A DNA stretch of 64,000 nt from Chryseobacterium sp. 3008163 (GTDB taxonomy: Bacteria; Bacteroidota; Bacteroidia; Flavobacteriales; Weeksellaceae), in assembly GCF_003669035.1 (NCBI RefSeq), contig NZ_CP033070.1, positions 3,720,001 to 3,784,000 of the forward strand, in the 5' to 3' direction. Of the stretch, positions 5,267-61,323 are shown one piece after another. A program made the position numbers and the translations under genes. The notes below the pieces were generated by a model. The model was not told where the DNA came from, made no database searches, and saw only the letters and a program-made list of their open reading frames with translations. How positions within the stretch are numbered: the stretch's first letter is position 1; each line of letters begins with the position of its first letter.

Positions 5267-5334
5267 ACCTAATCCTATTTAATATAATTCTAAAAAATAG
5301 AATAACTAAAAACTAACTTAAACATTAAAAAAAA

Positions 5335-6309: not shown

Positions 6310-6339
6310 AATTGACTTGCCATTAGTGACAAGTCAATT
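6310..6339. terminator. Bidirectional terminator between converging genes
   Basis: A perfect 10-bp stem, AATTGACTTG / CAAGTCAATT, with a 10-nt loop. It is flanked by A-rich sequence on the left and T-rich sequence on the right. It separates the plus-strand Usp gene from the minus-strand DUF3570 gene and can serve both. Confidence 0.75.
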
Positions 6340-6345
6340 AAATTT

Positions 6346-7515: not shown

Positions 7516-7551
7516 TTTAAATCACAATTAAATTTTACAATTACTCTTCTT

Positions 7552-7779
7552 TTAATTACATCCGCAACCTCCGCCCACTTTTCCAGCATTAGCGCCTGAG
7601 GAACCTTCTCTGTAAGACTGAAAGCTCAGCTCGGTTTTTTCTATAGTTCTGTTTCCAAGAACCATTTCAGCATCATTTAATTTGTTTTTTTCGTATTCTT
7701 TTACGGTTGTACAGGATTGTACAGAAGCGATGGTTACTAAAAAGCAAATTGCTGTTGTTATTTTTATGAAATTTTTCAT
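7552..7779 (-). CDS. DUF4266 small lipoprotein
   Basis: A 75-residue protein with a lipoprotein signal (VTIASVQSC, Cys23), the conserved KEYEKNKLNDAEM segment, and a Gly/Cys-rich tail GKVGGGCGCN that typifies DUF4266. The paired cysteines at the tail suggest metal binding or redox activity (inference). It lies 36 bp upstream of the DUF3570 gene and 43 bp after ApbE. Confidence 0.85.
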   Translation of the reverse strand: MKNFIKITTAICFLVTIASVQSCTTVKEYEKNKLNDAEMVLGNRTIEKTELSFQSYREGSSGANAGKVGGGCGCN

Positions 7780-7822
7780 TTGAATTAAATTTGTTTTTAA
7801 AATTTAAAATCCAAGATTGGAT

Positions 7823-8752: not shown

Positions 8753-8755
8753 TGT

Positions 8756-9200
8756 CTACTGTTTTTGATTTTCTTTTATTTCCCGGATCTCTTTACTGAA
8801 AGCCAAAGCGTTTTCAGAAGGTAGACCTTCCCAGCTTTTCAGTACCTTTCCTTCAGAATTTAATAAAAGGGTGTAAGGAAAGAGCCCTTTTTGATTATAC
8901 TGATCTGCAAGCGAAGCGTTCTCTTTTTTAATTCGGGAGAAAGCTGGTTTTTCTTGTTTCTCGGAAAATCTGCGTTAATGTAGATAATCACATTTTCTGT
9001 TTCCAGTTTTTTAAAATCTTCAGTTTCAATAATATTTTTATGAAGTTTGATGCACGGAATGCACCAGTCTGAACCCGAAAAATTGAGTAAAATAAGCTCC
9101 TTTTTATCAGTCGCTGTTTTTTTGCATCCTCAAAACGATTTTGAGCCTTAGCTGAGAAAGAAAGCATAACCATTGTTAGGCTTAGAAATAATGTTCTCAT
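8756..9200 (-). pseudogene. Thioredoxin-like periplasmic protein, two frameshifts
   Basis: The frame begins MRTLFLSLTMVMLSFSAKAQ (signal peptide). It shifts at the T7 run 9117-9123 and again at the T6 run 8924-8929. Adding one base at each restores a thioredoxin fold: LILLNFSGSDWCIPCIKLH with the CxxC-like WCIPC centre, then VIIYINADFPR, and GLFPYTLLLNSEGKVLKSWEG with the cis-proline. The restored length is about 148 residues. It would provide thiol redox function in the periplasm for the ApbE/DUF4266/DUF3570 cluster. Both defects are homopolymer contractions, so sequencing error is possible. Confidence 0.8.
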
Positions 9201-9321
9201 TATTTAAAATTTTATAATGATTTTATGTATTGATATGAAATACTTATAAACCTTTTATATAGATCTATAAAGAGTTGTTTAATTTGATCAGACTTTTGAC
9301 CAAATTTTATTGTAAGTAATG

Positions 9322-9711
9322 TTATGAATATAAGGATCTAGGAGGTTCCCAAACAGAATTTAAAAAGCCTTTGTAGCAAAAATCTATATCACTGAAAGGA
9401 ATCTTTTGGGAATGTACTGCAGGTAGATGTTCGTTTTTAATTTCAAATGCAAATCCCTTTTCTAATGTGAAAAACAGAATCAATGGAGCAGAGTGAACCA
9501 CAAACGGCAACTTTTGATCTTTCTTATAATCACCGTCTTTAACGGGATGATCGTAATGGGTTTTGAGAAATGCAGTAAGAGACATTTCAGGATTCAAAGC
9601 TTTGTGCTCGCAATAATGTTCTATCAGATCAGGAATTTTCAACAGCTGATACAGTTCGGTTGTAGAAACCAAATATAAAGTCATCAACAGTATGGAAATC
9701 AATTTTTTCAC
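9322..9711 (-). CDS. Hypothetical exported protein (129 aa)
   Basis: Not recognised at function level. It starts at a GTG with KKLISILLMTLYLVSTTELYQ, a hydrophobic signal segment. It then has a conserved-looking LIEHYCEHKALNPEMSLTAFLKTHYDHP stretch with several histidines and a cysteine, which would suit metal handling (inference). Proteins of this shape occur near metal or redox genes in Bacteroidota. It is transcribed away from the P-type ATPase gene. Confidence 0.65.
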   Translation of the reverse strand: MKKLISILLMTLYLVSTTELYQLLKIPDLIEHYCEHKALNPEMSLTAFLKTHYDHPVKDGDYKKDQKLPFVVHSAPLILFFTLEKGFAFEIKNEHLPAVHSQKIPFSDIDFCYKGFLNSVWEPPRSLYS

Positions 9712-9866
9712 TGATCAAAATTAGGAAATGTTTTGGTTAGAATGATTTTAAATTATTTGAATTACGATAACTTTTTATTGGTTCTGAAATAAACAAATAT
9801 TTTAGGTTTCAACTTTTTTAATCTGTATTTCCTATTCAAAACTCTGAAAACTTTTTCGAAAAATAT

Positions 9867-9932
9867 GTGATTTGCATCATTATTAAATTTGATCTTAATC
9901 AGGCAAAGAAATATGGGTAAATCGTATTTTTA
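9867..9932 (+). promoter_or_regulatory. Two Crp/Fnr-type boxes and promoter of the P-type ATPase
   Basis: Two palindromes lie 22 bp apart: GTGAT-TTGC-ATCAT (9867-9880) and TTGAT-CTTA-ATCAG (9889-9902). The latter is one base from the Fnr consensus. A -7-like TATTTTTA is at 9925-9932, 58 and 36 bp from the two box starts. These are the same two distances seen at the other island promoters. Confidence 0.6.
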
Positions 9933-9951
9933 GATAACAAATTTATTCGTT

Positions 9952-12453
9952 ATGTCTTACCATTTACCTACAGAATTTAAAGGCCTCACGAAAGAGGAAG
10001 TTTATTCTTCCAGACAACAGCATGGCTACAACCGGTTGGAGGGTATTCGTAAGAATACATGGTTAGATCTGCTGCTTAATATTTTGAAAGAGCCGATGCT
10101 CATCTTGCTGATCATTATATCCGTCATTTATTTTATTGTCGGAGATTATGGTGAGGCTGTTTTTATGCTGGTGGCTATTATTGCGGTGACTGCTATATCT
10201 TTTTATCAGGATAATCGGAGTAAAAAAGCTTTAGAAGAACTTGAAAAACTCAACGAACCTCTAAGTACGGTCATCAGAAACTCGGAGGTTGTAAAAATAC
10301 CAACACATGAGATTGTTGTAGGTGATTTATGTATTACTGAGGAAGGTCGGATTATCAACGCCGATGGTAAAATTGTACACAGTAATGATTTTTCGGTGAA
10401 TGAATCTTCGCTTACCGGAGAAAGTTTTTCAGTCTTTAAAGATAGCAATACAGAAAATAATCTCGTGTACAGTGGAACTGTAACTGTTTCTGGATTAGCT
10501 GTTTTTGAGGTTCGGGAAATAGGAAGGTTAACAAAGATCGGACAGATCAGCGAATCAATTCTAACTATTAAAGAGGAAATTTCTCCACTGCAGATCCAAA
10601 TCGGGAAATTTGTCAAAGGAATGGCTGCTATCGGTTTCATTATTTTTTTAACAGTGTGCATTTTCAATTACATAAAAACAGGAGATTTGGTAACAAGTCT
10701 TCTCAGTGGTCTTACATTAGCAATGTCGGTGTTACCCGAGGAAATTCCTGTAGCATTTACAACGTTTATGGCATTAGGAGCATGGAAACTTATGCGTCAG
10801 GGTATTATTATAAAGCGCAGTAGTATTGTAGAAACTTTAGGAAGTACAACGGTGATCTGTACCGATAAAACCGGAACCATTACTGAAAATTCAATGCATC
10901 TGAAGTATCTGTATGATTTCCGGTCAGGAAAGACCTACGAAGAAACCGATTTTAAAACTGATGAGGTAAAAGAACTGATCGCTTACGCTATGTGGAGTAG
11001 TGAACCGCTACCTTTTGATCCTATGGAAATCACACTTCACAAAATCTATGAGCAGACACAAAAAAATGATCAACGGAAAGAATTTCAAATGTTTCATGAA
11101 TATCCGCTGGAAGGCAAGCCCCCCATGATGACCCATCTTTTTGAAAATGTACATAAAAATAGAATCATTGCAGCGAAAGGAGCCGCTGAAGCCATTTTGA
11201 AGGTTTCAAAGCTGTCAGAAATCCAAAAACAAGAGATCAGAAACATTATACAGAAATTTGGAAAGCTGGGATACCGGGTTTTGGGAGTGGCCAAGTCCGA
11301 TTTTGAAGGAAATAATTTTCCTGCAAGACAACAGGATTTTGTTTTTGAGTTTTTAGGTTTGACGGTATTTTATGATCCTCCTAAAAAAGGAATTCAGGAT
11401 GTATTTCAAAGTATTTATAATGCAGGTATTAAAGTCAAAGTAATTACAGGAGACAATGAAGATACCACCCAAGCTATTGCAGTACAGGCTGGGATTGTAA
11501 ATTCCGCTCCTGCTGTCAATGGAAATGAAATTATCAATAGTTCCGAAGAAGATTTAATAAATATCTCAGAACGCAGTAATTTATTTACAAGGATGTTTCC
11601 CGATGCAAAACTAGCTGTCATTAATGCTTTAAAAAAGAAAGGAGAAGTAGTGGCGATGCTTGGAGATGGTGTGAACGATGGCCCTGCGCTTAAAGCTGCG
11701 CATATCGGTGTAGCCATGGGCAATAAAGGAACAGAAATTGCCAAATCTGCCGCCGCATTGGTGATCACGAATGATGATTTAGCAAAACTTATTGTTGGAA
11801 TCGCTGCAGGAAGAAGAATTTATGCGAATATTAAAAAGGCAGTTCAGTATATTATTTCTATTCATATTCCTATTATATTGACTGTTTCTTTACCGTTATT
11901 TCTGGGCTGGATATTCCCTCAAATATTTACTCCGGTTCATGTTATTTTTCTTGAGCTCGTCATGGGGCCGACCTGTTCCATTGTATACGAAAATGAACCG
12001 ATGGAAAAAAACACAATGACCCAACCTCCAAGAGCATTGGGAGAAACTTTTTTGAATTTCAGTGAGTTGGGGATCAGTATACTACAGGGACTGGTTATCA
12101 GTGTTGGGATTTTGTTCGTATATCAGTATAGCGTTCAACTTGGTGGCAGTGAAGAAAAAACCAGAGCCATGGTATTCAGCACACTCATCTTTGCCAATAT
12201 ACTCCTAAGCTTCGTTAATCGATCGTTTTACTATAGTGTATGGGAAAGTTTAAAAAACCGTAATCTCTTACTTATTGGTATTTCTTCTTTAGTCTTAGGG
12301 CTGTTGTTGGTTATATTATACGTGAAGCCAGTATCTTTTTTCTTTAAAGTAACTGTTCTTACTTTGAATGAATTAGGGATGTCATTTTTCATAGCAGCAG
12401 TCTCAGTGCTATGGTTTGAGATCTTTAAATATGTGAAAAGAAAAAGAGAGTGA
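9952..12453 (+). CDS. P-type cation-translocating ATPase (P2A-like)
   Basis: An 833-residue membrane pump that would move a cation, probably Ca2+ or another divalent ion, across the inner membrane using ATP. Visible features are an N-terminal cation-ATPase domain, the actuator TGES loop (155-158), PEEIP in membrane helix 4 (262-266), the phosphorylation site DKTGT with Asp305, the KGAAE nucleotide-binding segment, and the GDGVNDGPALK hinge. About eight to ten membrane helices fit a type II pump; the heavy-metal CPx motif is absent. Two Crp/Fnr-type boxes precede it. Confidence 0.9.
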   Translation: MSYHLPTEFKGLTKEEVYSSRQQHGYNRLEGIRKNTWLDLLLNILKEPMLILLIIISVIYFIVGDYGEAVFMLVAIIAVTAISFYQDNRSKKALEELEKLNEPLSTVIRNSEVVKIPTHEIVVGDLCITEEGRIINADGKIVHSNDFSVNESSLTGESFSVFKDSNTENNLVYSGTVTVSGLAVFEVREIGRLTKIGQISESILTIKEEISPLQIQIGKFVKGMAAIGFIIFLTVCIFNYIKTGDLVTSLLSGLTLAMSVLPEEIPVAFTTFMALGAWKLMRQGIIIKRSSIVETLGSTTVICTDKTGTITENSMHLKYLYDFRSGKTYEETDFKTDEVKELIAYAMWSSEPLPFDPMEITLHKIYEQTQKNDQRKEFQMFHEYPLEGKPPMMTHLFENVHKNRIIAAKGAAEAILKVSKLSEIQKQEIRNIIQKFGKLGYRVLGVAKSDFEGNNFPARQQDFVFEFLGLTVFYDPPKKGIQDVFQSIYNAGIKVKVITGDNEDTTQAIAVQAGIVNSAPAVNGNEIINSSEEDLINISERSNLFTRMFPDAKLAVINALKKKGEVVAMLGDGVNDGPALKAAHIGVAMGNKGTEIAKSAAALVITNDDLAKLIVGIAAGRRIYANIKKAVQYIISIHIPIILTVSLPLFLGWIFPQIFTPVHVIFLELVMGPTCSIVYENEPMEKNTMTQPPRALGETFLNFSELGISILQGLVISVGILFVYQYSVQLGGSEEKTRAMVFSTLIFANILLSFVNRSFYYSVWESLKNRNLLLIGISSLVLGLLLVILYVKPVSFFFKVTVLTLNELGMSFFIAAVSVLWFEIFKYVKRKRE

Positions 12454-12611
12454 TATATAAAGCTACCTAAGATCTTATAGAGTCCAAGACATTCATAATT
12501 AGGATTTCAAAGACTTTACGATTCATCTGCAATAAAAGATTGAAGATATAAAAAAAATCAATGATATACGCTACTGGCAAACCATTTAATCAAAAATAAA
12601 TAATTAAAAAT

Positions 12612-13435
12612 ATGAGAACAATTGTAGTACCCACAGATTTTTCAAAGCCGGCAAGAAATGCAGCGGTTTATGCACTTCATCTAGCTCATGCCCTGAAATC
12701 AGATATGCATCTTTGCCATTCTTTTGAGATTCCTATTGAAAGCCCCATGCTTGGGCAGACTGCCTGGGCTGTATATGAATATCCTGCCTTGCAGAAGGAT
12801 AACGACGAAGAACTTAAAAAGCTGGCGAAAACCTTAGAAGATAAGGAGAAAATACTATGGGGAGATGTCATCCAATTAGTCAATGATACTGCTGCCAAAA
12901 ATAAAACCCTTCTTATTGTGATGGGGATGCAGGGAGCCGGAATGCTTACCCGATTCCTTTTTGGAAGCAACAGTCTGAAAATGATGGAGAATACAAAGCA
13001 TCCTCTCCTTTTAATCCCTCCAAAACACAAGTTTAAAGGGTTGAAAAAAATTGCGTTTGCAACAGATCTTGATAAGAAGGATATAAAGACAGCCCAATCT
13101 TTAATTGAATTTGCTGAATACTTTGGCGCCGAGCTTTTGATTACGCACATTATTCAGAGCAGCAATGAGGTTATTGAAAATACAGAGTATGAGCACAGAA
13201 AAGAATTTTTTTAAAGAAATTTGACGGCAAAATATGTTATAACTGTATTTATAGCGAAGACATTGATTACGGTTTAGATATATTGAAAAATAAAGATATC
13301 GATATGTTAATTATGGGACATCAGCATAGAGGTTTTTTCGATAAATTAGTAGTCGTCAGCCACGCAGTTGAGCAGGCAAACCATCTGGAAATACCTCTAT
13401 TAATTATTCCGGAAGGGCAGACTGTATCTTTTTAG
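12612..13435 (+). pseudogene. Universal stress protein, tandem UspA domains, one frameshift
   Basis: Starts MRTIVVPTDFSKPARNAAVY and reads as Usp domain 1, with MGMQGAGMLTRFLFGSNS and TKHPLLLIPP. It then enters domain 2 (LKKIAFATDLDKKDIKTAQ). At the T7 run 13206-13212 the frame ends; one extra T restores LKKFDGKICYNC and then MLIMGHQHRGFFDKLVV...PLLIIPEGQ to 13435. The restored length is 274 residues, like its neighbour at 5335. It lies between the ATPase and the sensor kinase. Probably an intact gene mis-sequenced or a very recent mutation. Confidence 0.82.
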
Positions 13436-45548: not shown

Positions 45549-46884
45549 ATGAAAGTTTCAGCATTTTTAAGGAAGTCCGCAAATAAAAATAATACCGAAA
45601 TCCAAGCAACAATTTATTTTCGCTTACGTGATAAGAATAAAGATATTAAATCGGCAAGTGAGTTAACTATTAATCCAAATCATTGGAATGCGGAAAAACA
45701 AGGTTATAAAGATAGGGTAGCGTTAATTGGCGATAGTGAAAAAATAAAGTTGAAAAATGATATTCAAAATATTATTTCTTTTATCACTCAAAATTATGAT
45801 GAAGATGCAGATGGAGAATGGCTAAACGTAATGATTGATAAATATCATCACCCAGACAAGTATAAAAATAAAGAACAGATAGAAGCTGAAAGAAATCTAT
45901 CTTTTGCAGAACTTTTTGATGATTTTCTACTAAAGCACAAGCTATCAGAAGTTAGAAAAAAAATTTCCGAGTAATTAAAAGAATTCTCCTGCGGTATGAA
46001 TTATATGTAAGAAATACAAAAAAAATAAAGGTTCATTTACTTTGAACATTAATCATATCACTTCCGATACATTATATGACATATCAGATTTTTTAGAAAA
46101 TGAGCACATATATTATGAATTGTATCCTTCTATATATGAGCAAATTCCTGAAAAGCGAGTTCCAAAACAACGAGGAAAAAATACCATAATTGATTGTCTT
46201 TGTAAAATAAGGACATTCTTTTTATGGTGCTATAAACATAATAAAACGATAAATAAACCTTTCGATAAGTTTAAAATTGATGATTGTACTTATGGAACAC
46301 CTTTTTATATTACAATTGAAGAGCGTGATAAGTTATATGAAAAGGATTTTTCCGAAAATAAACATTTAGAATTGCAGCGGGATATATTTGTATTTCAGTC
46401 ATTGATAGGTTGTCGTATTGGCGATTTTTATCGTATGACTAAACAAAATATAATAAATGATGCCATTGAATATGTCCCAAGAAAAACAAAAGATGGCAAT
46501 CCTATCACTGTTCGTGTTCCCCTTAATAATAAAGCGAAGGATATATTAAAAAAATACGAAGCATATGATGGTAAGATGCTTTTGCCTTTTATTTCAGAGC
46601 AGAAATATAATGATGCAATAAAGAAAGCATTTAAATTGGCAGAAATAGATAGAATTGTTACAGTACTTGACCCACTTACTAATGAAGGTGTCAAAAAATA
46701 CCTTTATGAGGTTGCTAGTAGCCATATGGCTCGCAGAACGTTTATTGGCAACATTTACAAAAAAGTAAAAGACCCTAATTTGATTGGGGCTTTGAGTGGA
46801 CACAAAGAGGGAAGTAAAGCTTTCAGTCGTTATAGAGAAATAGATGAAGATATGAAAAAAGAATTGGTAAACTTATTAGATTGA
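45549..46884 (+). pseudogene. Tyrosine-type integrase of the mobilizable element, two frameshifts
   Basis: The N-terminal arm-binding part (MKVSAFLRKSANKNNTEIQA..) runs to the A8 run 45956-45963. A core-binding stretch (FRVIKRILLRYELYVRNTKK) continues to a second A8 run at 46018-46025, and the catalytic part follows. One A added at each gives 445 residues. Catalytic residues are present: Arg in LIGCRIGDF, HMARRTF, LSGHKEGS, and the final Tyr in AFSRYREI. It would integrate and excise the element. Both breaks are homopolymer losses. Confidence 0.85.
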
Positions 46885-49678: not shown

Positions 49679-50557
49679 ATGAACTGCAAACAATTCAACA
49701 TTATATCGTTGGAAGAAGTCCTCCTTTCTCTCGGACACCTTCCCACGAAACAAAATGAAAGAGAAGCTTGGTATCTCAACCCCTTTACCAGCGAATCCCA
49801 AGCCTCTTTTAAAATCAATAAAAGTATAAACAAGTGGTACTTATTTTCACAAGGAATCGGTGGAAATAATACTGACTTTATGAAGAAGTATCTGAATACT
49901 TCAGTAAATGGAGTTTTAAGTTGGGCAGAAAATCAGAAGTTTTCTTCTTTTCTAAATCAAAATATTCCTGATCAGAAGTTCGAAAACCCGAGTAAAAATT
50001 ATGAGATACTTGATGTGAATGAAATGCAGCATCCTGCACTTCTGGAATATTTAAGAGAAAGAAATGTCGGAAATCAAACTCAGTTCTTACAAGAAATTCA
50101 TTACCGAATGAACGATAAAAACTATTTCGGAATTGGTTTCAAAAACGATTCTGAGGGTTACGAAATTCGCAATAAATATTCAAAAATTTGTTTAGGCAAA
50201 AAAGATGTTTCTACTATAAAAAATGGATCAGAATCGCTTCGGGTTTTCGAAGGTTTTTTCGATTTTCTTTCATTTAAAAATGTAGAGAATCTTTTAGAAA
50301 AAGAGCCTTCTGATTATCTCGTTTTGAATTCCGTTTCGATGATTTCAAACATTAAAAAAACACTCGATAACTATGCAAATATTGAGCTTTATTTTGACAA
50401 TGACGAAGCCGGAAATCGTGCAGTTGAAATCATAAGTAATCAAAATCAAGACGTGAAAGATTGTCGGATTTTATATTCACATTTTAAAGACTTAAATGAT
50501 TGGATGATTCACAAAAATCCATCACCTGAAAGACAAGTGAAACAAAAGCGAAGGTGA
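49679..50557 (+). CDS. Toprim-domain primase-like protein of the element
   Basis: A 292-residue protein. The N-terminal region resembles the zinc-binding/primase start without a clear CHC2 set (LPTKQNEREAWYLNPFTSE.QASF). A Toprim domain covers about 180-275, with the catalytic Glu in RVFEGFFDFLS and the acidic pair in LYFDNDEAGNRAV. It resembles the PrmN1-type primases of NBU-like mobilizable transposons, which prime the transferred or replicating strand. Confidence 0.85.
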   Translation: MNCKQFNIISLEEVLLSLGHLPTKQNEREAWYLNPFTSESQASFKINKSINKWYLFSQGIGGNNTDFMKKYLNTSVNGVLSWAENQKFSSFLNQNIPDQKFENPSKNYEILDVNEMQHPALLEYLRERNVGNQTQFLQEIHYRMNDKNYFGIGFKNDSEGYEIRNKYSKICLGKKDVSTIKNGSESLRVFEGFFDFLSFKNVENLLEKEPSDYLVLNSVSMISNIKKTLDNYANIELYFDNDEAGNRAVEIISNQNQDVKDCRILYSHFKDLNDWMIHKNPSPERQVKQKRR

Positions 50558-50705: not shown

Positions 50706-51155
50706 ATGGAAAAAAACTTTTTACAAGAATTTATACACCAAGTTGCCAAAGAAAATGAAGCAACGATTGCTCAGGAAAAGAGAAGAAAACATTTCCAGGA
50801 ACTTGGTCGGAAAGGCGGTTTGAAGACCAAAGAAAATAAAAAATTGGATAAAGTGATTTCAATCAGAATGACCAATTCCGAATATTATGTTTTAGTTCAA
50901 AAACAAGAAAAATATCCGCTAAAATTGTCTGCTTATATCCGGAATGTTTTGTTCGAAAAAGAACTAAAAATCAATGAATTTCAAACCGATGAGATCTTAC
51001 TCCAATATGGAACTCATTTCAAAAAAATCACCAATCTTTTACGAAATCGGGAATGGAATGTTTTTGAAAATAAGAAAGAAATTTTATTGAGAATTGAAAA
51101 TCTGATCGAATTGATTCATCAGTATTTATATTCAAAAATTAAGAAAAATGAATAA
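50706..51155 (+). CDS. MobC-like mobilization accessory protein
   Basis: A 149-residue basic protein. The RKGGLKTKENKKLDKVISIRMTNSEYYVL segment is the ribbon-helix-helix region of plasmid mobilization relaxosome proteins. The C-terminal half is helical (LLQYGTHFKKITNLLRNREWN). It would bind oriT and load the relaxase. It overlaps the relaxase gene by 8 bp, a typical coupled arrangement. Confidence 0.85.
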   Translation: MEKNFLQEFIHQVAKENEATIAQEKRRKHFQELGRKGGLKTKENKKLDKVISIRMTNSEYYVLVQKQEKYPLKLSAYIRNVLFEKELKINEFQTDEILLQYGTHFKKITNLLRNREWNVFENKKEILLRIENLIELIHQYLYSKIKKNE

Positions 51156-52296
51156 TTCCGCAACCACAAGATCCATTACAAAAATCGCTTTGGAATATAA
51201 TGCGAACGACAAAGGAACAGCGGAGATGGTGGCTTCGAATTATCTTTTGAGTGATACTGCGGAAGGTCAGTTTTACGAAATGAAAACTGTAGCTGAACGA
51301 AACCAAAAAGTAAAGAAGTGGGCATTGACAGGTTATATTTCTCAACCGGACGAAATTGGCAGAAAATTGAAGGATGAAGAATTAAAACAAATTGCGATGG
51401 AAGCTCTTGTAAACGTAGGTGTGACGGATAAAAATCAATACCGATTGGATATTCATAATAGTACAAAACATAAGCATATCCATTTTGTTGTCAACAGGAT
51501 TGATATTTCGGGAAAGTGCACAGTGAAAGCACACGATATCGGAAGACGATTTGGTGAAGCTGTCAGAGAAGTTTGTAAAGAAAAAGGATTATTGACCGAT
51601 GTTGAAATTGGAATTCAGAAAAAAGCGGTGATGCTGCAAGGCTTGACCGAAGCTATCAGGTCAGAAGATAATTTTGATGATCTGATCTTAGCAATGAAGA
51701 AAAAAGGTTTTGAAATTCAATTGTCTTCAAATGTTAAAGACGGGATTTCGGGAATGCGGATTGTGATGGAAAAAGACAAAAATTTTCAAACTGAAAGAAT
51801 TTATAAAGCTGGTTACAAATTATCTGAAATCTCAAATCAACTAAAAATTTCTGAAATAAAATCTCTGTTTGAAGTTAAAAAAGCGATTAAGGGAGTACAA
51901 AGAAATGCTGACAATTTAAAGGAATTTCGGGAAAATCTACGACAAAAAGGATTTTCTGTAAAGATCCAATATAACGGAGAATTTAAAGCCAATCAAAAAA
52001 ATAAAATTAAAGATATATGGATCAATAAAGTTGAAAGTAATCAACAGAAAAACGGATTCTTTTTCCGGAAAAATTTCGGGTTCTCTCTTTCTGCAATAGA
52101 TTCTGATCTTGGTGATCTGGTAAAATCATTAAATCAAAGTAGTATAAAAAATGATGTAAGTGATTATTTGAAATCAGAAACAAATGAAAGCTTAATAGAA
52201 ATTGCAGGCGGATTATTGGGTAACGTACTTAACCCAACTTATGTTTCCCACGACGAGGATGAACTTTGGAAAAAGAAGCGAAAATTAAGACGATAA
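51148..52296 (+). CDS. Relaxase/mobilization nuclease
   Basis: A 382-residue HUH relaxase of the MobP type common in Bacteroidota. The metal-binding motif KHKHIHFVVNRID is at about 107-119. N-terminal candidate tyrosines are in IALEYNAND and AEGQFYEM. KAHDIGRRFGEAVREVCKEKGL follows. It nicks oriT and pilots the strand through a helper conjugation system; no type IV secretion genes are in view, so the element is mobilizable rather than self-transmissible. Confidence 0.9.
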   Translation: MNNSATTRSITKIALEYNANDKGTAEMVASNYLLSDTAEGQFYEMKTVAERNQKVKKWALTGYISQPDEIGRKLKDEELKQIAMEALVNVGVTDKNQYRLDIHNSTKHKHIHFVVNRIDISGKCTVKAHDIGRRFGEAVREVCKEKGLLTDVEIGIQKKAVMLQGLTEAIRSEDNFDDLILAMKKKGFEIQLSSNVKDGISGMRIVMEKDKNFQTERIYKAGYKLSEISNQLKISEIKSLFEVKKAIKGVQRNADNLKEFRENLRQKGFSVKIQYNGEFKANQKNKIKDIWINKVESNQQKNGFFFRKNFGFSLSAIDSDLGDLVKSLNQSSIKNDVSDYLKSETNESLIEIAGGLLGNVLNPTYVSHDEDELWKKKRKLRR

Positions 52297-53034: not shown

Positions 53035-56000
53035 ATGAAATTCAACGAAGATTCACGAGTGAAAATACCAGCATTGCTGCATTTAATGCGATTAGGTTAT
53101 CAATATATTCCACTAAATCAACAAAACAGAATTGAGGAAAATAATATATTCTCTGCTATTTTTATTTCTCAAATTTCAAAAATAAATAGGATAACAGAAG
53201 AGGAAGCAGGACGTGTATTAGACGATATTAATCTTGAATTGGATTATGAAGATCTTGGGAAAAAGTTTTATGAACGCTTAGTGGCTACTTCAGGAGTTAA
53301 ATTAATTGATTTTGAGCATTTTAATAACAATAGTTTTCACATTACCACAGAATTAACTTGTAAAGCAGGGGATGAAGAATTTCGCCCAGATATTACAGTT
53401 ATAATTAATGGTTTGCCACTGGCTTTTATTGAAGTAAAAAAACCTCATAACAAAGAGGGTGTAATTAATGAACGTAATAGAATCAATACTCGTTTTAAAA
53501 ATAAACAATTTCGCCGTTTTGTAAACATTTCTCAATTGTTAGTTTTTTCCAATAATATGGAATACGAAGACGGAATTGTAGAGCCAATTTTTGGTGCATT
53601 TTACGCAACGCCATCTTATGAACAAGTCAATTTTAATTATTTCCGAGAGGATTTAGACTACCCAGTAAAACAAACCTTAGGAGGTGTTGAAGAAAAAAAT
53701 GAAAATGATTTACTCAAAGACAACAACTTGGTTGTCATTAAAAACAGTCCGGAATACATTACCAACAAACAGGAGAACACACCTACCAATCGAATTTTAA
53801 GTTCAGTTTTTACCAAAGAACGTTTGCAGTTTATTTTGCGATATGCTATTGCTTATATAGAAGAAGAAAATTCAGGTAAAATTACGTACCAGAAACACAT
53901 TATGCGTTATCCGCAAATATTTGCAACGCAGGCAATTGCTACAAAATTGGATGCTGGACAAAACAAAGGTATCATTTGGCACACGCAAGGTTCAGGAAAA
54001 ACGGCTTTAGCTTACTTTAACGTTAAGCATCTCACTGATCATTATGCTGCAAAGGGAATTGTACCTAAGTTTTATTTTATCGTTGATCGTTTAGATTTAT
54101 TAATACAAGCTTCCAGTGAATTTAATAATCGTGGGTTAAAAGTTAATTCTGTAAATTCTAAACAAGATTTCATCAAAGACTTACAGGTTATTGGAGCTTT
54201 GCATAATGACAGTGGAATTCCAGAAATTACTGTTGTCAATATTCAGAAATTTTCGGAAGATGCAACGGCTTTATTGAATGTCAATTATGATATCAAGATT
54301 CAGCGTGTTTATTTTTTAGATGAAGCGCACCGAAGCTATAATCCAAAAGGTAATTATTTAGCAAATCTTATTAATTCAGATCGGAATGCGGTTATTATTG
54401 CCTTGACCGGAACTCCATTATTAAAAGAAGTTGCGAAAGATTATGACTCTAAAATGCTTTTTGGTAATTATTTTCATAAATATTACTACAATATGTCCAT
54501 TGCAGACGGATATACATTACGTTTAATTCGTGAACAGATTGAAGGAAACTTTAAGATGGAAATGAAAGAGGTGATGGATCAAATTAAAGTATTGCAAGGT
54601 GATATAACTACCCGAAATATTTATGCGCATCCTAAGTTTGCAGAACCTTTGTTAGATTATATTACAAAGGATTTAATCAAATTTAGAAGGGATTTAGATG
54701 ACAACTCTTTAGGTGGATTAGTAGTTTGCGATTCAGCAGATCAAGCCAAAGAATTGTTTCGTTTGTTTCAAGAGAAGTATGGAGAACAAGAAACAGATGC
54801 AAGTCTATTAATGGTTGCAGAACCAAAAGCAAAATACGGGCGAAATGAAGATGTTAAATTAACTTCTGCTCTGATTCTTCACGATGAAAATGATAAGTCT
54901 GTTCGGAAAGAATTAATCAGTGCTTACAAAAAAGCTAAAGTTGATATTCTCTTTGTTTACAATATGTTGCTGACAGGTTTTGATGCAAAACGTTTGAAAA
55001 AATTATATTTGGCGCGTGTAATTCAAGATCACAACTTATTGCAAACATTGACAAGAGTCAATCGTCCTTACAAAAAATATCAGTATGGTTATGTCGTGGA
55101 CTTTGCAGATATCTCAAAAGCATTCGATCGTACCAATAAATTGTATTTCGATGAATTGCAAGATCAGCTTGGTGATGAAATGGAAATGTATTCTCACTTA
55201 TTCAAGACAGAAGAAGAAATCCAGCAAGATATTAAAGAAATTAAGGAAACATTGTTTCATTATGATACTCAAAATAGGGAAATTTTCTCCCAACAAATTG
55301 CCCAAATCACAGATAAAAGTAGGCTTACTCAATTAATAAAAGCTTTAAGAACTGCAAAAGAATTAAAAAATATCATTGCTGTTAACGGCTATGAAGCTTT
55401 GGACGGAATTGCAGATTTTGAAATTTGGAATAGATTATTAATAGAAGCTCAAGGCAGATTGGATAATCTAAATTTTGTAGAAAGTATTGGCAATGATGAT
55501 GCTTCTAAAAATTTGTTGAATACAGCACTTGAAGATATTATTTTTCAATTTATAAAAGTAGATGAGAGTGAATTGGTTTTAGCAGATGAGTTTAAAAATA
55601 TCCTGCGCAAAGCCAGAGAATCACTTCAAAATAATTTCGATCAATTTGATCCTCAATTTGTAAGTTTACGTCAAGAACTAGAAAGGATTTTTAAGAAGAA
55701 AAACCTGAGTGAAATCAATCAAACTGATATGATTGAAAATATGCATCTTTTACAAAAACTTTACGATCAGGCCAAAGAGCTTAATCGTAAAAATGCTTTA
55801 CTGAAAGCCAAATACGAAAACGACGAAAAATACTCTCGAATTCATAAAAGATTAAGCGAAAAGGGAGATCTTAACGCCAAAGAAATGCAATTGCATAAAG
55901 CACTGATGCAAGTAAAACAACAGGTCGATGACAAATTAGAAGGACAAGAAGATTTAATTAAAAACGAAGCTTTCTTCAAACGTTATCTTTTGCAATTGGT

Positions 56001-56109
56001 TGTACAGGAATTTAAGAAGAAGGAACAAATTGAAATGGATCAGGCAATGAAAAATAATATTAGTAATTTAATAGCAAATGAATATTTGCAACAATTTCAA
56101 TACAGATAA
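53035..56109 (+). CDS. hsdR: Type I restriction endonuclease subunit R
   Basis: A 1024-residue motor and nuclease subunit. The N-terminal nuclease domain shows FRPDITVIINGLPLAFIEVKK (PD..ExK). The helicase core has Walker A in THTQGSGKTALAYF-like sequence (WHTQGSGKTALA), DEAH in LDEAHRSYNPKG, LTGTPLL, and a C-terminal helicase half with LLTGFDAKRLKKLYLARV and QTLTRVNRPY. The helical end contacts HsdM. Cargo of the mobilizable element; 5 bp before hsdM. Confidence 0.95.
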   Translation: MKFNEDSRVKIPALLHLMRLGYQYIPLNQQNRIEENNIFSAIFISQISKINRITEEEAGRVLDDINLELDYEDLGKKFYERLVATSGVKLIDFEHFNNNSFHITTELTCKAGDEEFRPDITVIINGLPLAFIEVKKPHNKEGVINERNRINTRFKNKQFRRFVNISQLLVFSNNMEYEDGIVEPIFGAFYATPSYEQVNFNYFREDLDYPVKQTLGGVEEKNENDLLKDNNLVVIKNSPEYITNKQENTPTNRILSSVFTKERLQFILRYAIAYIEEENSGKITYQKHIMRYPQIFATQAIATKLDAGQNKGIIWHTQGSGKTALAYFNVKHLTDHYAAKGIVPKFYFIVDRLDLLIQASSEFNNRGLKVNSVNSKQDFIKDLQVIGALHNDSGIPEITVVNIQKFSEDATALLNVNYDIKIQRVYFLDEAHRSYNPKGNYLANLINSDRNAVIIALTGTPLLKEVAKDYDSKMLFGNYFHKYYYNMSIADGYTLRLIREQIEGNFKMEMKEVMDQIKVLQGDITTRNIYAHPKFAEPLLDYITKDLIKFRRDLDDNSLGGLVVCDSADQAKELFRLFQEKYGEQETDASLLMVAEPKAKYGRNEDVKLTSALILHDENDKSVRKELISAYKKAKVDILFVYNMLLTGFDAKRLKKLYLARVIQDHNLLQTLTRVNRPYKKYQYGYVVDFADISKAFDRTNKLYFDELQDQLGDEMEMYSHLFKTEEEIQQDIKEIKETLFHYDTQNREIFSQQIAQITDKSRLTQLIKALRTAKELKNIIAVNGYEALDGIADFEIWNRLLIEAQGRLDNLNFVESIGNDDASKNLLNTALEDIIFQFIKVDESELVLADEFKNILRKARESLQNNFDQFDPQFVSLRQELERIFKKKNLSEINQTDMIENMHLLQKLYDQAKELNRKNALLKAKYENDEKYSRIHKRLSEKGDLNAKEMQLHKALMQVKQQVDDKLEGQEDLIKNEAFFKRYLLQLVVQEFKKKEQIEMDQAMKNNISNLIANEYLQQFQYR

Positions 56110-56114
56110 TAAAA

Positions 56115-57734
56115 ATGACGCAGGACATTAATTTTATGACCAAAACCAAATCGTTGATAGACAACCTAAAAAGTGTTTGTGCTAACTATGGCTTAGGAAA
56201 TGATGGAAACGAATTTAAAATTATAACACAAGTATTTCTTTACAAATTCTTAAACGATAAATTTCGATATGCTGTAAAAAAAGAAATGCCAAAGTTAGCA
56301 GAATCCGAGAATTTTTCAATTGCCTTAAAATCGCTTTCTGAAGATGATTACTCAGATTTAATTGATGCACTAGATCCAAACATTCCAAGATTACAACCAG
56401 AGCATTTAATTTCTCATTTGTTTGTAAAACAAAATGATAGTGATTTTGCTAAATTGTTTGATGATACCTTGCGCCAGGTTTCGATTGAAAATGCCGATGT
56501 TTTTTCGGTAAAATCTTTCACCGGTGCAAAAGATACCTTGTTTGATGAACTTACACAGTTTATTTCGGATTCTTCGCAACGAGATGCATTTGCAAAAGCA
56601 TTAATCAATAAATTATTTGAGTTTTCTTTCGAAGAAATGTTTGAACAGAAATACGATTTTTTTGCCACTATTTTTGAATATTTGATTAAAGACTATAACA
56701 CTGATTCTGGAGGAAAATACGCCGAATATTATACGCCTCATTCAGTTGCTCGTATAATGGCGCAAATTTTAGTTCCAGAACCCGTAAAAGGTGTGAAATG
56801 TTACGATCCAAGTGCAGGATCGGGAACTTTATTAATGAGTTTAGCTCACGAGATTGGCGAAGAAAACTGTACTATCTATTCAGAAGATATTTCTCAAAAG
56901 TCGAGCAATATGTTGCGTTTGAATTTGGTTTTGAATAACCTGACGCATTCAATCCCGAATATCATTAAAACGAATACCATTGCGCTTCCTTTCTATATGG
57001 ATACAAAATTTGAATACATTGTTTCAAATCCACCATTTAAATTAGATTTTTCTGATTTCCACGCAGATTTGGATAAAGACGCTTTTAAAAAAAGGTTCTT
57101 TGCAGGAATTCCTAATATTCCGAAAAGCAAAAAAGAATCGATGTCAATTTATTTATTGTTTATCCAACATATTATGCACAGTTTGAGCGATAATGGAAAA
57201 TCAGCAATTGTAGTTCCAACAGGTTTTATCACTGCACAAACCGGTATTGAGAAAAAGATTCGTGAGCGCCTAATTGAAAATGGATGGCTTCGTGGTGTAG
57301 TAAGTATGCCGAGCAATATTTTTGCAAGTACAGGTACTAATGTTTCTGTTTTATTGTTGGATAAAAAAGCAGATAACCAACATATAGTCTTGATGGACGC
57401 CTCTAAATTGGGAGAAACCGTAAAAGAAGGTAAAAACCAACGTACAGTTTTAAAACCAGAAGAAGAAGCGAAAATTATTGATACATTCAATCAGAAAATT
57501 GCAGTTGAAGATCTATCCGTTGTCGTTAGCAAAGAAGATATTGCGGCTAAAAATTATTCGTTTTCAGCTGGACAATATTTTGAAGTAAAAATAGAATATG
57601 TTGACATTACCGCTGAAGAATTTGCAGAAAAAATGAATGATTTTGAAACAAACTTACAATCTCTTTTTGAAGAAGGAACTGCTTTAGATTTGGAGATTCG
57701 GAAGCAATTAAAAGTGTTGAAATATGATGAATAA
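56115..57734 (+). CDS. hsdM: Type I restriction-modification DNA methyltransferase subunit M
   Basis: A 539-residue N6-adenine methyltransferase. N-terminal helical domain; SAM motif CYDPSAGSGTLLMSL; catalytic motif IV NPPF in YIVSNPPFKLD; and the KYAEYYTPHSVARIMAQILV region. It overlaps hsdS by 11 bp. Together with HsdS it methylates the target; with HsdR it restricts unmodified DNA. Confidence 0.95.
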   Translation: MTQDINFMTKTKSLIDNLKSVCANYGLGNDGNEFKIITQVFLYKFLNDKFRYAVKKEMPKLAESENFSIALKSLSEDDYSDLIDALDPNIPRLQPEHLISHLFVKQNDSDFAKLFDDTLRQVSIENADVFSVKSFTGAKDTLFDELTQFISDSSQRDAFAKALINKLFEFSFEEMFEQKYDFFATIFEYLIKDYNTDSGGKYAEYYTPHSVARIMAQILVPEPVKGVKCYDPSAGSGTLLMSLAHEIGEENCTIYSEDISQKSSNMLRLNLVLNNLTHSIPNIIKTNTIALPFYMDTKFEYIVSNPPFKLDFSDFHADLDKDAFKKRFFAGIPNIPKSKKESMSIYLLFIQHIMHSLSDNGKSAIVVPTGFITAQTGIEKKIRERLIENGWLRGVVSMPSNIFASTGTNVSVLLLDKKADNQHIVLMDASKLGETVKEGKNQRTVLKPEEEAKIIDTFNQKIAVEDLSVVVSKEDIAAKNYSFSAGQYFEVKIEYVDITAEEFAEKMNDFETNLQSLFEEGTALDLEIRKQLKVLKYDE

Positions 57735-58434
57735 AGAGATACTAATTTCGACTTTGATCGATGAAATTTCTATGGGACCATTTGGCTCAGATATAAAAGT
57801 GGATAATTTTATTAATGTAGGAGTACCTGTTTTGAACGGATCTAATTTAGTAGCATATAAGCTTACTGAAAATTCCTTTAGATATGTGAGTGAGGAAAAA
57901 GCAAATACATATGGAAAAGCGATTGCAAAAAGAGGAGATATTGTAATCACACATCGAGGCACGTTAGGACAAATTTCATTTATTCCTACAGATTCAAAAT
58001 TTGAAAAATACGTGATTTCACAAAGCCAATTTAGAGTAAGGTTTAATGACAAAAAAGTAAGTTCACAATTTATCGTCTATTTATTTCATACTGAATATGG
58101 TCAGAAAAAGCTTTTGTCATTTAAGAACCACGTTGGCGTACCTGCTTTGGCTCAAGCGACAACAAACTTTAAGGCATTAAAACTAACTTTACCAGATTTA
58201 ACAATCCAACAAAAAATTGCATCTGTACTTTCCAAACTAGATGATAAAATTGAGCTCAATAATAAAATAAATGATAATTTAGATCTTCTTGCAAAAACGA
58301 TGTACGATTACTGGTTTGTGCAATTTGATTTTCCAGATGAAACCGGAAAACCCTACAAATCAAGTGGTGGCAAAATGATTTGGAATGAAGTATTGAAGAG
58401 AAAGATCCCGGAAAGTTGGGAAATAGAAAATTGA
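57724..58434 (+). CDS. hsdS: Type I restriction-modification specificity subunit S, first half (TRD1a)
   Basis: A 236-residue N-terminal half of HsdS. The target-recognition domain 1 is about 1-150 (SMGPFGSDIKVDNFINVGVPVLNG, then KRGDIVITHRGT). The central conserved helices follow (TIQQKIASVLSKLDDKIELNNKINDNL and MYDYWFVQFDFPDETGKPY). The frame ends in WEIEN-stop because one A is missing near 58430; the next frame continues as TRD2a. The central part contains the 14-bp recombination site at 58268. Confidence 0.88.
   Translation: MMNKEILISTLIDEISMGPFGSDIKVDNFINVGVPVLNGSNLVAYKLTENSFRYVSEEKANTYGKAIAKRGDIVITHRGTLGQISFIPTDSKFEKYVISQSQFRVRFNDKKVSSQFIVYLFHTEYGQKKLLSFKNHVGVPALAQATTNFKALKLTLPDLTIQQKIASVLSKLDDKIELNNKINDNLDLLAKTMYDYWFVQFDFPDETGKPYKSSGGKMIWNEVLKRKIPESWEIEN
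58268..58281 (+). repeat. 14-bp candidate recombination site, copy 1
   Basis: TAAATGATAATTTA: arms TAAAT/ATTTA around a GATA spacer, as for a small tyrosine-recombinase core. It lies in the hsdS central region, encoding I-N-D-N-L in frame. The 120 bp from here to 58390 are repeated at 60482-60603. Confidence 0.75.
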
Positions 58435-58970
58435 TTGATGTAGCAAATATCACTATGGACAATCTCCAATAGGAGAATCGTACAATGAAGGTCAAAATGG
58501 GATGATTTTTTTCAAGGTTCCACAGATTTCGGATGGAGATATCCTCAGACTCGTATGTATACAACTGCACCACAAGATATGCATTGGAAGATGATATATT
58601 GCTCAGCATCAGGGCTCCAATTGGAACTATAAATATAGCAATGGATAACTGTTGTATTGGCGAGGTCTCTCAGCTCTCAATAGCAGAGATCATTCTCAGT
58701 CTTTTTAATCTACCAGATGAATAATTTTAAGAAAAAGTTTGACTATTTGAATTTAGTAGGAACAACCTTTGTTCTATGACTAAGGATGAATTACAAAATT
58801 AGAGTTAGCTTACCCTAAAAAGGATTTATTGCAATTATTTGAGTCTAAGTTTCATTTATTGGAAAAAAATTAAAGTAATACAAACAAAATCAACAACTTA
58901 GCAAACTACGAGACTGGCTTTTGCCTATGTGATGAATGGCAGGTTAAAATTGAGTGATTTTGTAAAATAA
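58435..58970 (+). pseudogene. hsdS second half (TRD2a and C-terminal repeat), many one-base losses
   Basis: With about ten single-base corrections this reads KLIDVANITMGQSP, then FFQGSTDFGWRYPQTR, LEDDILLSIRAPIGTINIA, GRGLSALNS, and the conserved end LSKLRDWLLP and MNGRLKLSDFVK. That is a normal TRD2 and C-terminal conserved region of HsdS. Each lesion removes one base from a short run (A, G, C or T). This may be real decay of a silent half or a poor consensus from a mixed invertible locus. Confidence 0.72.
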
Positions 58971-59420
58971 ATTATCATTTATTCGATTGTTTAAATCAAT
59001 CTTATTGTCAATATCTCCCAGGATATTGGCAATTTTCTTTTGGACATCAAGAGTAGGTAATTGTATTTTCAAATTATAATAACTATCAAACGTCATACTT
59101 GGAACTCCGGTTCCAGTATTTAGATTTTTTAAATCTAATATTTTCAAATAGTTATAGAGAAAATAAGGTTCTGTAATGTTTTCAATAATTTCAGTGTAAT
59201 AAATTGTGTCAACTGTCCAGAAGGGTATTTTCGAAAATTGAATATTATCTAAGGTTCCTTTTCTTGGGAGCAAAATACTAGGCTTGTTATACAAAAACTG
59301 ATTGCCATATCGCATAATTCCGCCACTTCCAAAAATAGGAATATTACCATTCGGAATAGTTTTGTGGTCTTTACCATTTTTTATTTTAAGTAGATCTTTT
59401 AGTAGGTATTCTTTCGTCAT
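58944..59420 (-). CDS. hsdS: Inverted spare HsdS half (TRD1b)
   Basis: A 158-residue N-terminal HsdS half on the opposite strand. Target-recognition domain: YLLKDLLKIKNGKDHKTIPN, PIFGSGGIMRYGN, and TGTGVPSMTFDSYYNLKIQLP. Central helix: DVQKKIANILGDIDNKIDLNNRINDNL, then an artificial tail FYKITQF read through the inverted 14-bp site. Its ATG overlaps the recombinase stop (TAATG). It could act as a half-subunit, or be joined to TRD2b by inversion of 58968-60495, which keeps the frame. Confidence 0.85.
   Translation of the reverse strand: MTKEYLLKDLLKIKNGKDHKTIPNGNIPIFGSGGIMRYGNQFLYNKPSILLPRKGTLDNIQFSKIPFWTVDTIYYTEIIENITEPYFLYNYLKILDLKNLNTGTGVPSMTFDSYYNLKIQLPTLDVQKKIANILGDIDNKIDLNNRINDNLFYKITQF
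58968..58981 (-). repeat. 14-bp candidate recombination site, copy 2 (inverted)
   Basis: Reverse complement of TAAATGATAATTTA. It covers the TAA stop of the plus-strand hsdS end and, on the minus strand, the I-N-D-N-L codons of TRD1b. Confidence 0.75.
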
Positions 59421-60412
59421 TAACTTATAAATTTTCTATGGGCAATCTTAACATTTGCTTGATTAACCATTACGTAATGCATTGTGGTGTCAATTTTCAC
59501 GTGACCTAATAATTTTTGAACCTGCTCAATAGGCATCCCTTTGTCTATTGCCATAGTTGCAAGAGTTCGTCTGAATTTATGAGGATGTACTTTGTTGATT
59601 TGAGTTTTTAGTCCCAATTTTCGTAATACATTTTCCACACCACCAATAGAAAGCCTTTGATGAGGTTTTGACAGTGAAACGAAAAGGGCTTCGTTGTCAT
59701 CAGTCCGTGATTTTAGATATTGTGTTAAATGAATTTTGCTTCGTGCATCAAAATAAACTTCTCGTTCCTTATTTCCTTTTCCGGTCACAATACAAGAACG
59801 TTCGTGAAAATTAATATCTTTTCGGTTAATTTTCACAAGTTCGCCAACCCTTATTCCTGTAGAAATGAGTATTTCGATTAATGTTAAATCTCTGATTTCT
59901 TTGCAATTGTCTCGCAAAACTTCTATTTCTTCATCACTCAGAATTTCTTTAATAATTCTAGGAGATTTTATTTTATGAATTCGTCTAACAGGACTTTTCA
60001 AAATGTAATCTTCGTCTTCAAGCCAAGAAAAAAAGCTAGAAAATATTCTTCGGATATTATCAATCGTAACCTTGCTTGATTTCCTGACTTCTTGATAATC
60101 AGAAAGGTAAAATCTTAAATCATTGGTGGAAATATTAGTAATATTTTTCTTTAGTTTTAGAAGCAAATTCTCAATCGTTGAAAAATAATATTTCAAAGAT
60201 TTTTCGGAGCAACCTTCCACTTTTTTAGAAGAAATAAAAAGGCTTAGAATCGATTGATTGCTGTCTTTAAAGTTTTGATTTTCTTTATTTTGTAAAGTAA
60301 TTTCTACATTGTGAAAACTTTGATGAATTACCTTTTCCAGCATCATTATCTGTTGAAAATTCAAAACCGCATTCATTGCATTCATAATTTCTTGTTTCAC
60401 TAATTCCTTCAT
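59420..60412 (-). CDS. Tyrosine recombinase inside the hsdS locus
   Basis: A 330-residue XerC/D-like recombinase, chosen start MKELVKQEIMNAMNAVLNFQ at ATG 60412. N-terminal SAM-like core-binding domain about 60-150. Catalytic residues: Arg in STGIRVGEL, Lys in GKGNKERE, HKFRRTLAT, LLGHVKIDTT and Tyr in MHYVMVN. Enzymes of this kind flip DNA between inverted repeats in hsdS loci of Bacteroidota and Gram-positive bacteria. Stop overlaps the TRD1b start. No homopolymer damage is seen here. Confidence 0.9.
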   Translation of the reverse strand: MKELVKQEIMNAMNAVLNFQQIMMLEKVIHQSFHNVEITLQNKENQNFKDSNQSILSLFISSKKVEGCSEKSLKYYFSTIENLLLKLKKNITNISTNDLRFYLSDYQEVRKSSKVTIDNIRRIFSSFFSWLEDEDYILKSPVRRIHKIKSPRIIKEILSDEEIEVLRDNCKEIRDLTLIEILISTGIRVGELVKINRKDINFHERSCIVTGKGNKEREVYFDARSKIHLTQYLKSRTDDNEALFVSLSKPHQRLSIGGVENVLRKLGLKTQINKVHPHKFRRTLATMAIDKGMPIEQVQKLLGHVKIDTTMHYVMVNQANVKIAHRKFIS

Positions 60413-60481
60413 TGGGATCTTATTTTTTAAATTTTTCGAGCCGCAAAGAAATGAAAAACAAAAATAGCTAAAGTTGTACGC

Positions 60482-60495
60482 TAAATGATAATTTA
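60482..60495 (+). repeat. 14-bp candidate recombination site, copy 3
   Basis: Same orientation as the copy at 58268 and followed by the same 120 bp. Inversion between this site and the one at 58968 would turn TRD1b and the recombinase round and fuse TRD1b in frame to TRD2b. Confidence 0.75.
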
Positions 60496-61214
60496 GATCT
60501 TCTTGCAAAAACGATGTACGATTACTGGTTTGTGCAATTTGATTTTCCAGATGAAACCGGAAAACCCTACAAATCAAGTGGTGGCAAAATGATTTGGAAT
60601 GAAAATTGAGAAGAGATATTCCGATTGGTTGGGAGGTTAGAAAGCTTTGCGAAATTGAATCAAAATAATTACAGGAAAGACACCGTCAACCTTAGTTGAA
60701 GAATATTTTGGAGGTGATATTCCATTTGTAACTATTGATGATGTTAGGCAACAATTATTTATTTTAAAAAGTTACAGAACACTAACTGAATTAGGTGCTT
60801 CAACTCAATCAACTAAATTTTATACGAAGGTGATATTTGTGTTTCCTGTATAGGAACTGTTGGTGTCATTGGAATTGTGGGAAAAAATGTCAACTAATCA
60901 ACAAATTAATTCTATTTCTAACATCAATAACAGTAACAGATATTTCTTTTAAATGCTCTAAAAATGTATTTTGAATTTAACAAAGGTGCAAAGCAAGGAG
61001 CCGTTCTTTCAAATATGAATAAAGTTGAGTTCTCAGAAATTACGATTCTCGACTCTACCAATGACATCAAAATAAATATTATAGGAAAGTCTATTCATTT
61101 TATGAAAAAATTATGAGCAATCAGCAACAAAACCAGCAACTTAGCTCTATCCGCGACTGGCTTTTACCAATGCTGATGAATGGCAGGTTAAAGTGGAATG
61201 ATTTTGTAAAATAA
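60482..61214 (+). pseudogene. Promoterless hsdS second half (TRD2b), several one-base losses
   Basis: Starts in the middle of the conserved central region (NDNLDLLAKTMYDYWFVQFD), without a first TRD. After one missing A near 60601 it reads LRRDIPIGWEV, then ITGKTPSTLVEEYFGGDIPF and VTIDDVRQQLFILKSYRTL, CIGTVGVIGIVG, and the end LSSIRDWLLPMLMNGRLKWN. This is a second TRD2 of different specificity. At least five one-base losses are present. It is silent as drawn and would be activated by inversion or exchange at the 14-bp sites. Confidence 0.75.
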
Positions 61215-61225
61215 ATTATCATTTA
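61212..61225 (-). repeat. 14-bp candidate recombination site, copy 4 (inverted)
   Basis: Inverted copy at the end of TRD2b, overlapping its stop codon exactly as copy 2 does for TRD2a. The shared flank TTTGTAAAATAAATTATC continues to its left. Confidence 0.75.
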
Positions 61226-61323
61226 TCTGATTTTTTAGATCAAATGATTCAACAAAAAAAGAGACATAACCATACGGCAATGCCTCTCCAATGAAAAAGT
61301 AATTATCCCGAATTACTTATATT

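Follow-up and report, generated by a model that had tools for sequence, protein, structure and literature searches.

Does the type I restriction-modification locus near the end of this stretch change its specificity by DNA inversion, and if so, at which sites and through which enzyme? The window, by which we mean the whole 64,000-nucleotide (nt) stretch of Chryseobacterium sp. 3008163 analysed here, carries hsdM, hsdR, four target recognition domains (TRDs) and one tyrosine recombinase gene. An earlier note on this DNA read the locus as an invertible hsdS system. Comparison with relatives points in the same direction, as related genomes carry alternative arrangements and the breakpoints in one of them (G087) lie on the 14-bp sites. 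We believe it very probable that inversion driven by the recombinase at these sites moves the TRD2 cassettes and thereby switches hsdS.

The locus reads TRD1a, site S1, TRD2a, site S2, TRD1b and the recombinase gene (both on the minus strand), site S3, TRD2b and site S4; TRD2a and TRD2b were named by their similarity to relatives. The sequence TAAATGATAATTTA occurs in four exact copies in the window: S1 (58268-58281, plus strand), S2 (58968-58981, minus), S3 (60482-60495, plus) and S4 (61212-61225, minus). These copies have the coordinates and strands that the earlier note gave them, and they enclose TRD2a and TRD2b with TRD1b and the minus-strand recombinase in between, as it also described. 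By chance, 0.02 copies are expected per window, and four copies were obtained in 0 of 100 shuffles. The 4.56-Mb single-contig genome contains six copies, four of them inside the hsdS locus, and one copy of the pattern read backwards. The remaining two exact copies lie at G000:C1:1712927 and 3998212, G000 being the genome of the window.

S1 lies in the central helix of hsdS. S2 forms the end of TRD2a on the plus strand and part of TRD1b on the minus strand, S3 is found between the upstream region of the recombinase gene and TRD2b, and S4 marks the distal end of slot 2. The earlier note had each site encode I-N-D-N-L; this is so for S1, S2 and S4, but S3 encodes L-N-D-N-L and is preceded by merely four open codons. 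A site at the stop codon, also described in the note, was found twice: S2 and S4, read on the plus strand, both start with the TAA that closes the conserved TRD2 tail. Outside S4 (window 61212-61243, minus strand), some 18 nt look like the last part of a TRD1 (D-L-K-N-Q-I-N-D-N-L) and are perhaps the remnant of a third TRD1 first half.

Alternative arrangements in relatives

The evidence for movement of the cassettes comes first from G087, a genome of the same genus. The ends of its contig overlap by about 20.4 kb, with similarity that runs from base 1 to the last base, and thus the locus seems to have been assembled twice. The final 8,355 nt match the start region with 99.56% identity, 0 mismatches and 37 gaps. 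Copy A has TRD1a fused to cassette Y, with TRD1c left as a half gene; copy B has TRD1c fused to cassette X, and here the half gene is TRD1a. The two copies share three collinear blocks (A 1-3343, 4097-5701 and 6469-13052). Every inner block end falls on a terminal base, first or last, of a site (3330, 4097, 5688 and 6469), and the outermost ends are set by where the stretch or the match stops. Between the copies, the two cassettes are both swapped and inverted; their matches extend 2-3 nt past the sites, and the recombinase block is identical across 1605 nt. One could suppose that the copies are a true duplication rather than one locus assembled twice, as both lie within one contig. However, an overlap from the first base to the last is what an uncircularised end gives, the tail shows gaps without mismatches, and a duplication would still show the identical breakpoints. 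We consider a duplication very unlikely.

A second relative, G256, belongs to another genus of the family and was the closest relative found (HsdM 95%, recombinase 93%). Collinearity with the window holds for its TRD1a, TRD1b and recombinase, but its TRD2a homologue (541/709 aligned bases identical) is inverted. TRD1b and TRD2a there form one 403-codon frame, and TRD1a stops 27 codons past the site. G007 is in the same phase as G256, with a different TRD1a. Further relatives differ in the recombinase block. The earlier note had predicted an inner inversion that yields two complete hsdS genes, and L044 (HsdM 74%) has this arrangement, with the recombinase block flipped and the four sites kept. 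In L185 (HsdM 75%) the block is also flipped with four sites kept, and both first halves are cut short. Thus the search of related genomes for alternative arrangements, which the note had named as a check, found them in G087, G256 and L044. Both states of slot 1, breakpoints at the sites and inversion of a homologous cassette can be read from the assemblies of relatives.

We classified the states of 34 arrangements in which hsdM was found and exactly two sites lie between hsdM and the recombinase. Exactly one complete hsdS is present in L119, L120, L182, L041 and L043, two are present in L044 and none in L185. L121 was mislabelled in this classification and was left out of the counts; L122/L039 (one genome) was excluded because N gaps duplicate its sites, and L081, which has four CATC sites, because hsdM was not found. 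In four Bacteroidales loci (L047, L090, L108 and L109, at ~5240-7010), the reading frame of the slot-2 cassette, in one orientation, continues into that of the recombinase at 572-590 codons from the site.

Could the cassettes be moved by ordinary homologous recombination between longer imperfect repeats, and not by the recombinase? Such repeats are present: a 122-nt stretch is identical from S1 onward and from S3 onward, and 70 nt around S2 and S4 are 90% identical. However, these repeats are direct, not inverted, and the similarity of inverted pairs amounts to only 38 nt at 82% (S1/S2) and 32 nt at 84% (S1/S4). Repeats this short and imperfect are inadequate for efficient homologous recombination. 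In addition, switching of the Streptococcus suis locus SsuCC20p depends on xerD (PMC10790761). These points make homologous recombination a highly improbable route.

We propose that the recombinase would pair the 14-bp sites in inverted orientation, each site having the arms TAAAT and ATTTA around an asymmetric spacer, GATA. Slot 1 lies between two head-to-head first halves. With slot 1 forward, the hsdM-linked TRD1a-TRD2 gene would be complete and TRD1b would be a half gene; with slot 1 reversed, TRD1b would be the completed gene, on the opposite strand and immediately after that of the recombinase, and TRD1a would be the half gene. Slot 2 may hold a reserve cassette. Inversions between the four sites can generate 16 arrangements of the locus. 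In this way, the sequence that a population methylates and restricts would change. We infer that this recombinase is the agent, that TRD1b is expressed and that the target changes.

On the plus strand, hsdR (restriction subunit, 53035-56109; Pfam HSDR_N and SWI2_SNF2) and hsdM (methyltransferase subunit, 56115-57734; Pfam N6_Mtase) are intact. TRD1a, the first half of the hsdM-linked hsdS (57724-58267, plus strand; Pfam Methylase_S), lies in the open reading frame 57724-58434. Slot 1 (58268-58981, plus strand) holds TRD2a in forward orientation, its frame broken by small gaps. TRD1b (58944-59420, minus strand; Pfam Methylase_S) belongs to the second hsdS and is currently a half gene that ends ...INDNLFYKITQF and a stop. 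Its start shares one base with the stop of the recombinase gene (59420-60412 from the first ATG, minus strand, MKELVKQEI...), which matched Pfam Phage_integrase and Phage_int_SAM_4 and an XerA-like NCBIfam model. Its catalytic domain was found with an E value of 1.2e-34 (Pfam PF00589), and we take GIRVGEL, HPHKFRRT and HYVMVN, read by eye, to be the R, HxxR and Y motifs. Slot 2 (60482-61225, plus strand) holds TRD2b, forward, with a gapped frame and without a first half in front. In the gap between S3 and the recombinase gene, the reverse strand carries TATTTTTG (window 60440-60481), which is also present in G087, G041, G032 and G007; it fits the Bacteroidota -7 element, TAnnTTTG.

Site rule and possible coupling of the cassettes

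Does the site follow the recombinase? As relatives of the recombinase we took the best 80 of 467 in genome contigs, the query in the searches being the open stretch 59420-60430; four of the 80 (L037-L040) apparently overlap genomes of the genus and family searches. The relatives span Bacteroidota, streptococci, clostridia, Methanobrevibacter and Pectobacterium, and thus both bacteria and archaea. At least two TAAAT/CAAAT-N4-ATTTA/G sites with a common spacer were present in 53 of the 80, compared with 1 of 1600 first-order random sequences, in which the two arm forms were searched in separate draws. The spacer was GATA in 16 loci, CATC in 12, CAGA in 11, CATA in 4, CGCA in 4 and AAAA in 2, and four loci with CAAAT arms had AATA. 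A second spacer was found in the four CAAAT/AATA loci (AACA) and in three GATA loci (GGGA). Conservation drops at the edge of the 14-mer in the recombinase-side and distal flanks, and the coding flanks remain conserved (33 and 29 loci). Thus, the element common to the four kinds of site is about 14 bp long.

This bears on the suggestion that the 14-mer is mere conserved coding for the central helix of HsdS (I-N-x-N-L) and no recombination site. The three window copies that encode I-N-D-N-L would fit such a role, and a stray palindrome in L147 has TAAAT-N4-ATTTA and encodes L-N-E-N-L, in a frame not established as HsdS. Nevertheless, S2 and S4 double as gene ends, S3 has no gene in front of it, and the block ends of G087 coincide with the 14-mer, which contradicts the suggestion. 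In the genus, 29 HsdS loci that lack the recombinase served as a control (L134 was left out as a recombinase locus); the 5-bp arms were present in 0 of 16 located motifs, 6 of which are at central-helix positions and 10 near the C-terminus (>350). One stray TAAAT-N4-ATTTA was present in 2 of the 29 loci, that of L147 among them, and two in none. The most similar control motif, INTEL in L138, has no palindrome, and the same is true of G077 by protein. We regard a role in coding alone as extremely unlikely.

The recombinase (E up to 1e-60) was found in 6 of 173 genus genomes, in 10 of 320 family genomes (the genus six included) and in 3 of 395 order genomes (G000 and G087 included). With a site rule open to direct searching, the frequency of such switches could be established, archaea included.

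Some loci with two spacers have other layouts. In two loci from Clostridia (L073, 4600-8200; L074, 2300-6000), the start spacer is AATA and the end spacer AACA. A 96%-identical TRD2 cassette occupies slot 1 in one of them and slot 2 in the other, its orientation unchanged, as if the exchange had involved no inversion; 44 nt into the cassette of the other slot there is a near-copy of the start site. In the Prevotella-like loci L054 (7061-9711), L056 (3687-6982) and L061, cassettes with GATA at the start and GGGA at the end follow each other in direct order, and hsdM and the recombinase gene lie upstream of them.

The sequences are also suggestive of a coupling between the movements of the two cassettes. 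Among GATA loci with four sites and an identified hsdM, 11 of the 12 arrangements have cassettes that face in the same direction, or 10 of 11 if the second G087 copy is not counted; L121 and L122 were omitted. Where the spacer is CATC or CATA and the recombinase lies on the strand of hsdM, the cassettes are opposite in 7 of 7 loci, and in Bacteroidales loci they face in the same direction in 2 of 8. The binomial p values are 0.006, 0.016 and 0.29, respectively, with kinship ignored and the groups formed post hoc. Selection for one complete gene would be enough to explain the seven same-strand loci. This selection fails to explain the GATA figure, because the recombinase faces hsdM in 10 of 12 GATA arrangements and slot 2 is then irrelevant to the count of complete hsdS genes; paired changes would account for it. 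More than one type of change is needed, however, because L045 is the odd GATA case, and because TRD2a of G256 stayed in slot 1 whereas the cassettes of G087 changed slots. Paired movement of cassettes becomes testable through comparison.

Taken together, these observations allow a broader model, which we put forward tentatively and with rather more doubt than conviction. One recombinase family and a TAAAT-N4-ATTTA grammar may drive hsdS shuffling in bacteria and archaea. The enzyme would recognise the arms, and the four-base spacer, besides encoding the variable residue of I-N-x-N-L, would serve as an address that selects the sites able to exchange. One spacer per locus would lead to flipping, whereas two (start versus end) would lead to exchange without flipping. 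The cassettes would move in coupled pairs of events and so keep their relative orientation within a lineage.

The interrupted TRD2 frames

If the locus switches, why are its TRD2 frames interrupted? TRD2a and TRD2b of the window are each out of frame at several places, and the hsdS frame stops at 58434. Compared with G256, TRD2a has 19 deletion and 5 insertion positions; compared with an intact relative, TRD2b has 12 deletion and 5 insertion positions, some pairs of which cancel. A search with cassette DNA in 171 genus genomes found a full-length homologue of TRD2b in G077 only and none of TRD2a.

So many indels in both cassettes would be expected of a dead locus, in which the TRD2 cassettes have decayed to pseudogenes and the sites are relics. 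However, the mismatches fall mainly at third codon positions (114/184 for TRD2b against the intact relative, 99/168 for TRD2a against G256), which suggests that the TRD2 frames were under selection until recently. Decay is also not seen in the neighbouring genes: compared with G256, hsdR (2219 nt compared) and hsdM (1574 nt compared) have 0 gaps, TRD1b and the recombinase gene together have 1, and TRD1a has 8 gap positions in 2 openings with its frame still open. Moreover, a similar cluster of gaps separates the two assembled copies of cassette Y in G087 (26 gaps and 0 mismatches by BLAST; 24 gap and 30 mismatched columns by MAFFT), next to the identical recombinase block. The remaining copy-to-copy gaps in G087 (BLAST) number 2 in cassette X, 6 in the 3.3 kb of the left block and 1 in the 6.6 kb of the right block. 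A dead locus is therefore unlikely in our view.

The simplest reading of the gap clusters is consensus error, caused by mixed reads of two arrangements. We infer that the culture of the window strain was itself mixed in arrangement. In G032 (L121 9840-10505), TRD2-start sequence stands at both ends of slot 1, apparently because the consensus merges two orientations. In a scaffold of G091, unknown bases adjoin duplicated sites. If consensus errors are indeed confined to cassettes, then finished genomes may show switching specificity genes as false pseudogenes.

Several points weigh against recombinase-driven switching. As neither window cassette has an intact frame, the deposited sequence encodes no full HsdS. 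In G087 the fused frames break as well, 67 codons past the site in copy A and 54 in copy B, and the tail of the G087 contig is less well polished. Lastly, 27 of the 80 recombinase relatives have no pair of sites with a common spacer by our pattern. Set against the breakpoints in G087 and the arrangements of the other relatives, these points leave switching by the recombinase very probable.

Comparison with known systems

How much of this is new? Text searches of the literature for the letters of the site gave relevant matches only on S. suis, and a literature search found no paper on hsdS inverted repeats in Chryseobacterium. A survey by Huang et al. in 2020 reportedly found hsdS invertons in 16 phyla, and the site rule may already be in print there. 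Repeats shorter than 20 bp fell outside a REBASE survey of invertible hsdS genes and, as its authors state, were missed.

Three published systems were compared. The cod/SpnIII locus of S. pneumoniae (PMC7096588) also has a tyrosine recombinase beside hsdS and a 15-bp inverted repeat at which inversion is strictly PsrA-dependent. It differs in having repeats of 15, 85 and 298 bp and three hsdS genes, only hsdSA of which is described as functional. Shufflon BB of Bacteroides fragilis NCTC 9343 (PMC3090145) resembles the window locus in its host phylum, Bacteroidota, and in a tyrosine integrase that adjoins shuffling hsdS genes, but it has four sets of repeats and eight combinations. Its printed 38-bp repeat shows at least 14 mismatches in 38 positions everywhere in the window, on both strands.

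The closest parallel is SsuCC20p of S. suis, with the 14-bp sites TAAATCATCATTTA / TAAATGATGATTTA (PMC10790761). Each locus has four TRDs and one tyrosine recombinase between hsdS genes, and in each locus both TRD2-type cassettes are bordered by identical 14-bp sites whose arms are TAAAT/ATTTA. One complete hsdS beside truncated ones is the pattern of SsuCC20p and of several of our relatives (L119, L120, L182, L041 and L043). Two cassettes that change together and a location on a mobile element, both known from SsuCC20p, are plausible further parallels. For the window, the mobilizable element of the earlier note is plausible from the genes upstream, all on the plus strand: an integrase (46042-46884), a Toprim/primase (49679-50557), a NikA/MbpA-like gene (50706-51155) and a relaxase (51148-52296). 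An S. suis relative in our own set, L060, has 64% identity to the window recombinase and carries the SsuCC20p sites. The loci differ in the spacer, which is GATA in the window and CATC in SsuCC20p, and in the recombinase block, which in the window faces hsdM, an orientation that S. suis did not show, so that one cassette is common to two head-to-head TRD1 genes.

The authors of the SsuCC20p study report concurrent cassette changes, speculate on a coordinated double recombination and call the mechanism unknown (PMC10790761). They did not see inversion of the recombinase block in S. suis; in five S. agalactiae strains xerD is inverted and the sites are lost. In contrast, L044 and L185 combine a flipped block with four retained sites. 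The system was reported as confined to streptococci (PMC10790761).

The earlier note's claim that so short a site, lying in the central helix, is new thus finds no support. Because the parts and the form of the site are those of SsuCC20p, the window locus belongs to an already known design. What is new, as far as we have searched, is a member of this design in Bacteroidota, together with a common TAAAT-N4-ATTTA rule (CAAAT in some loci) in which the spacer is specific to the lineage.

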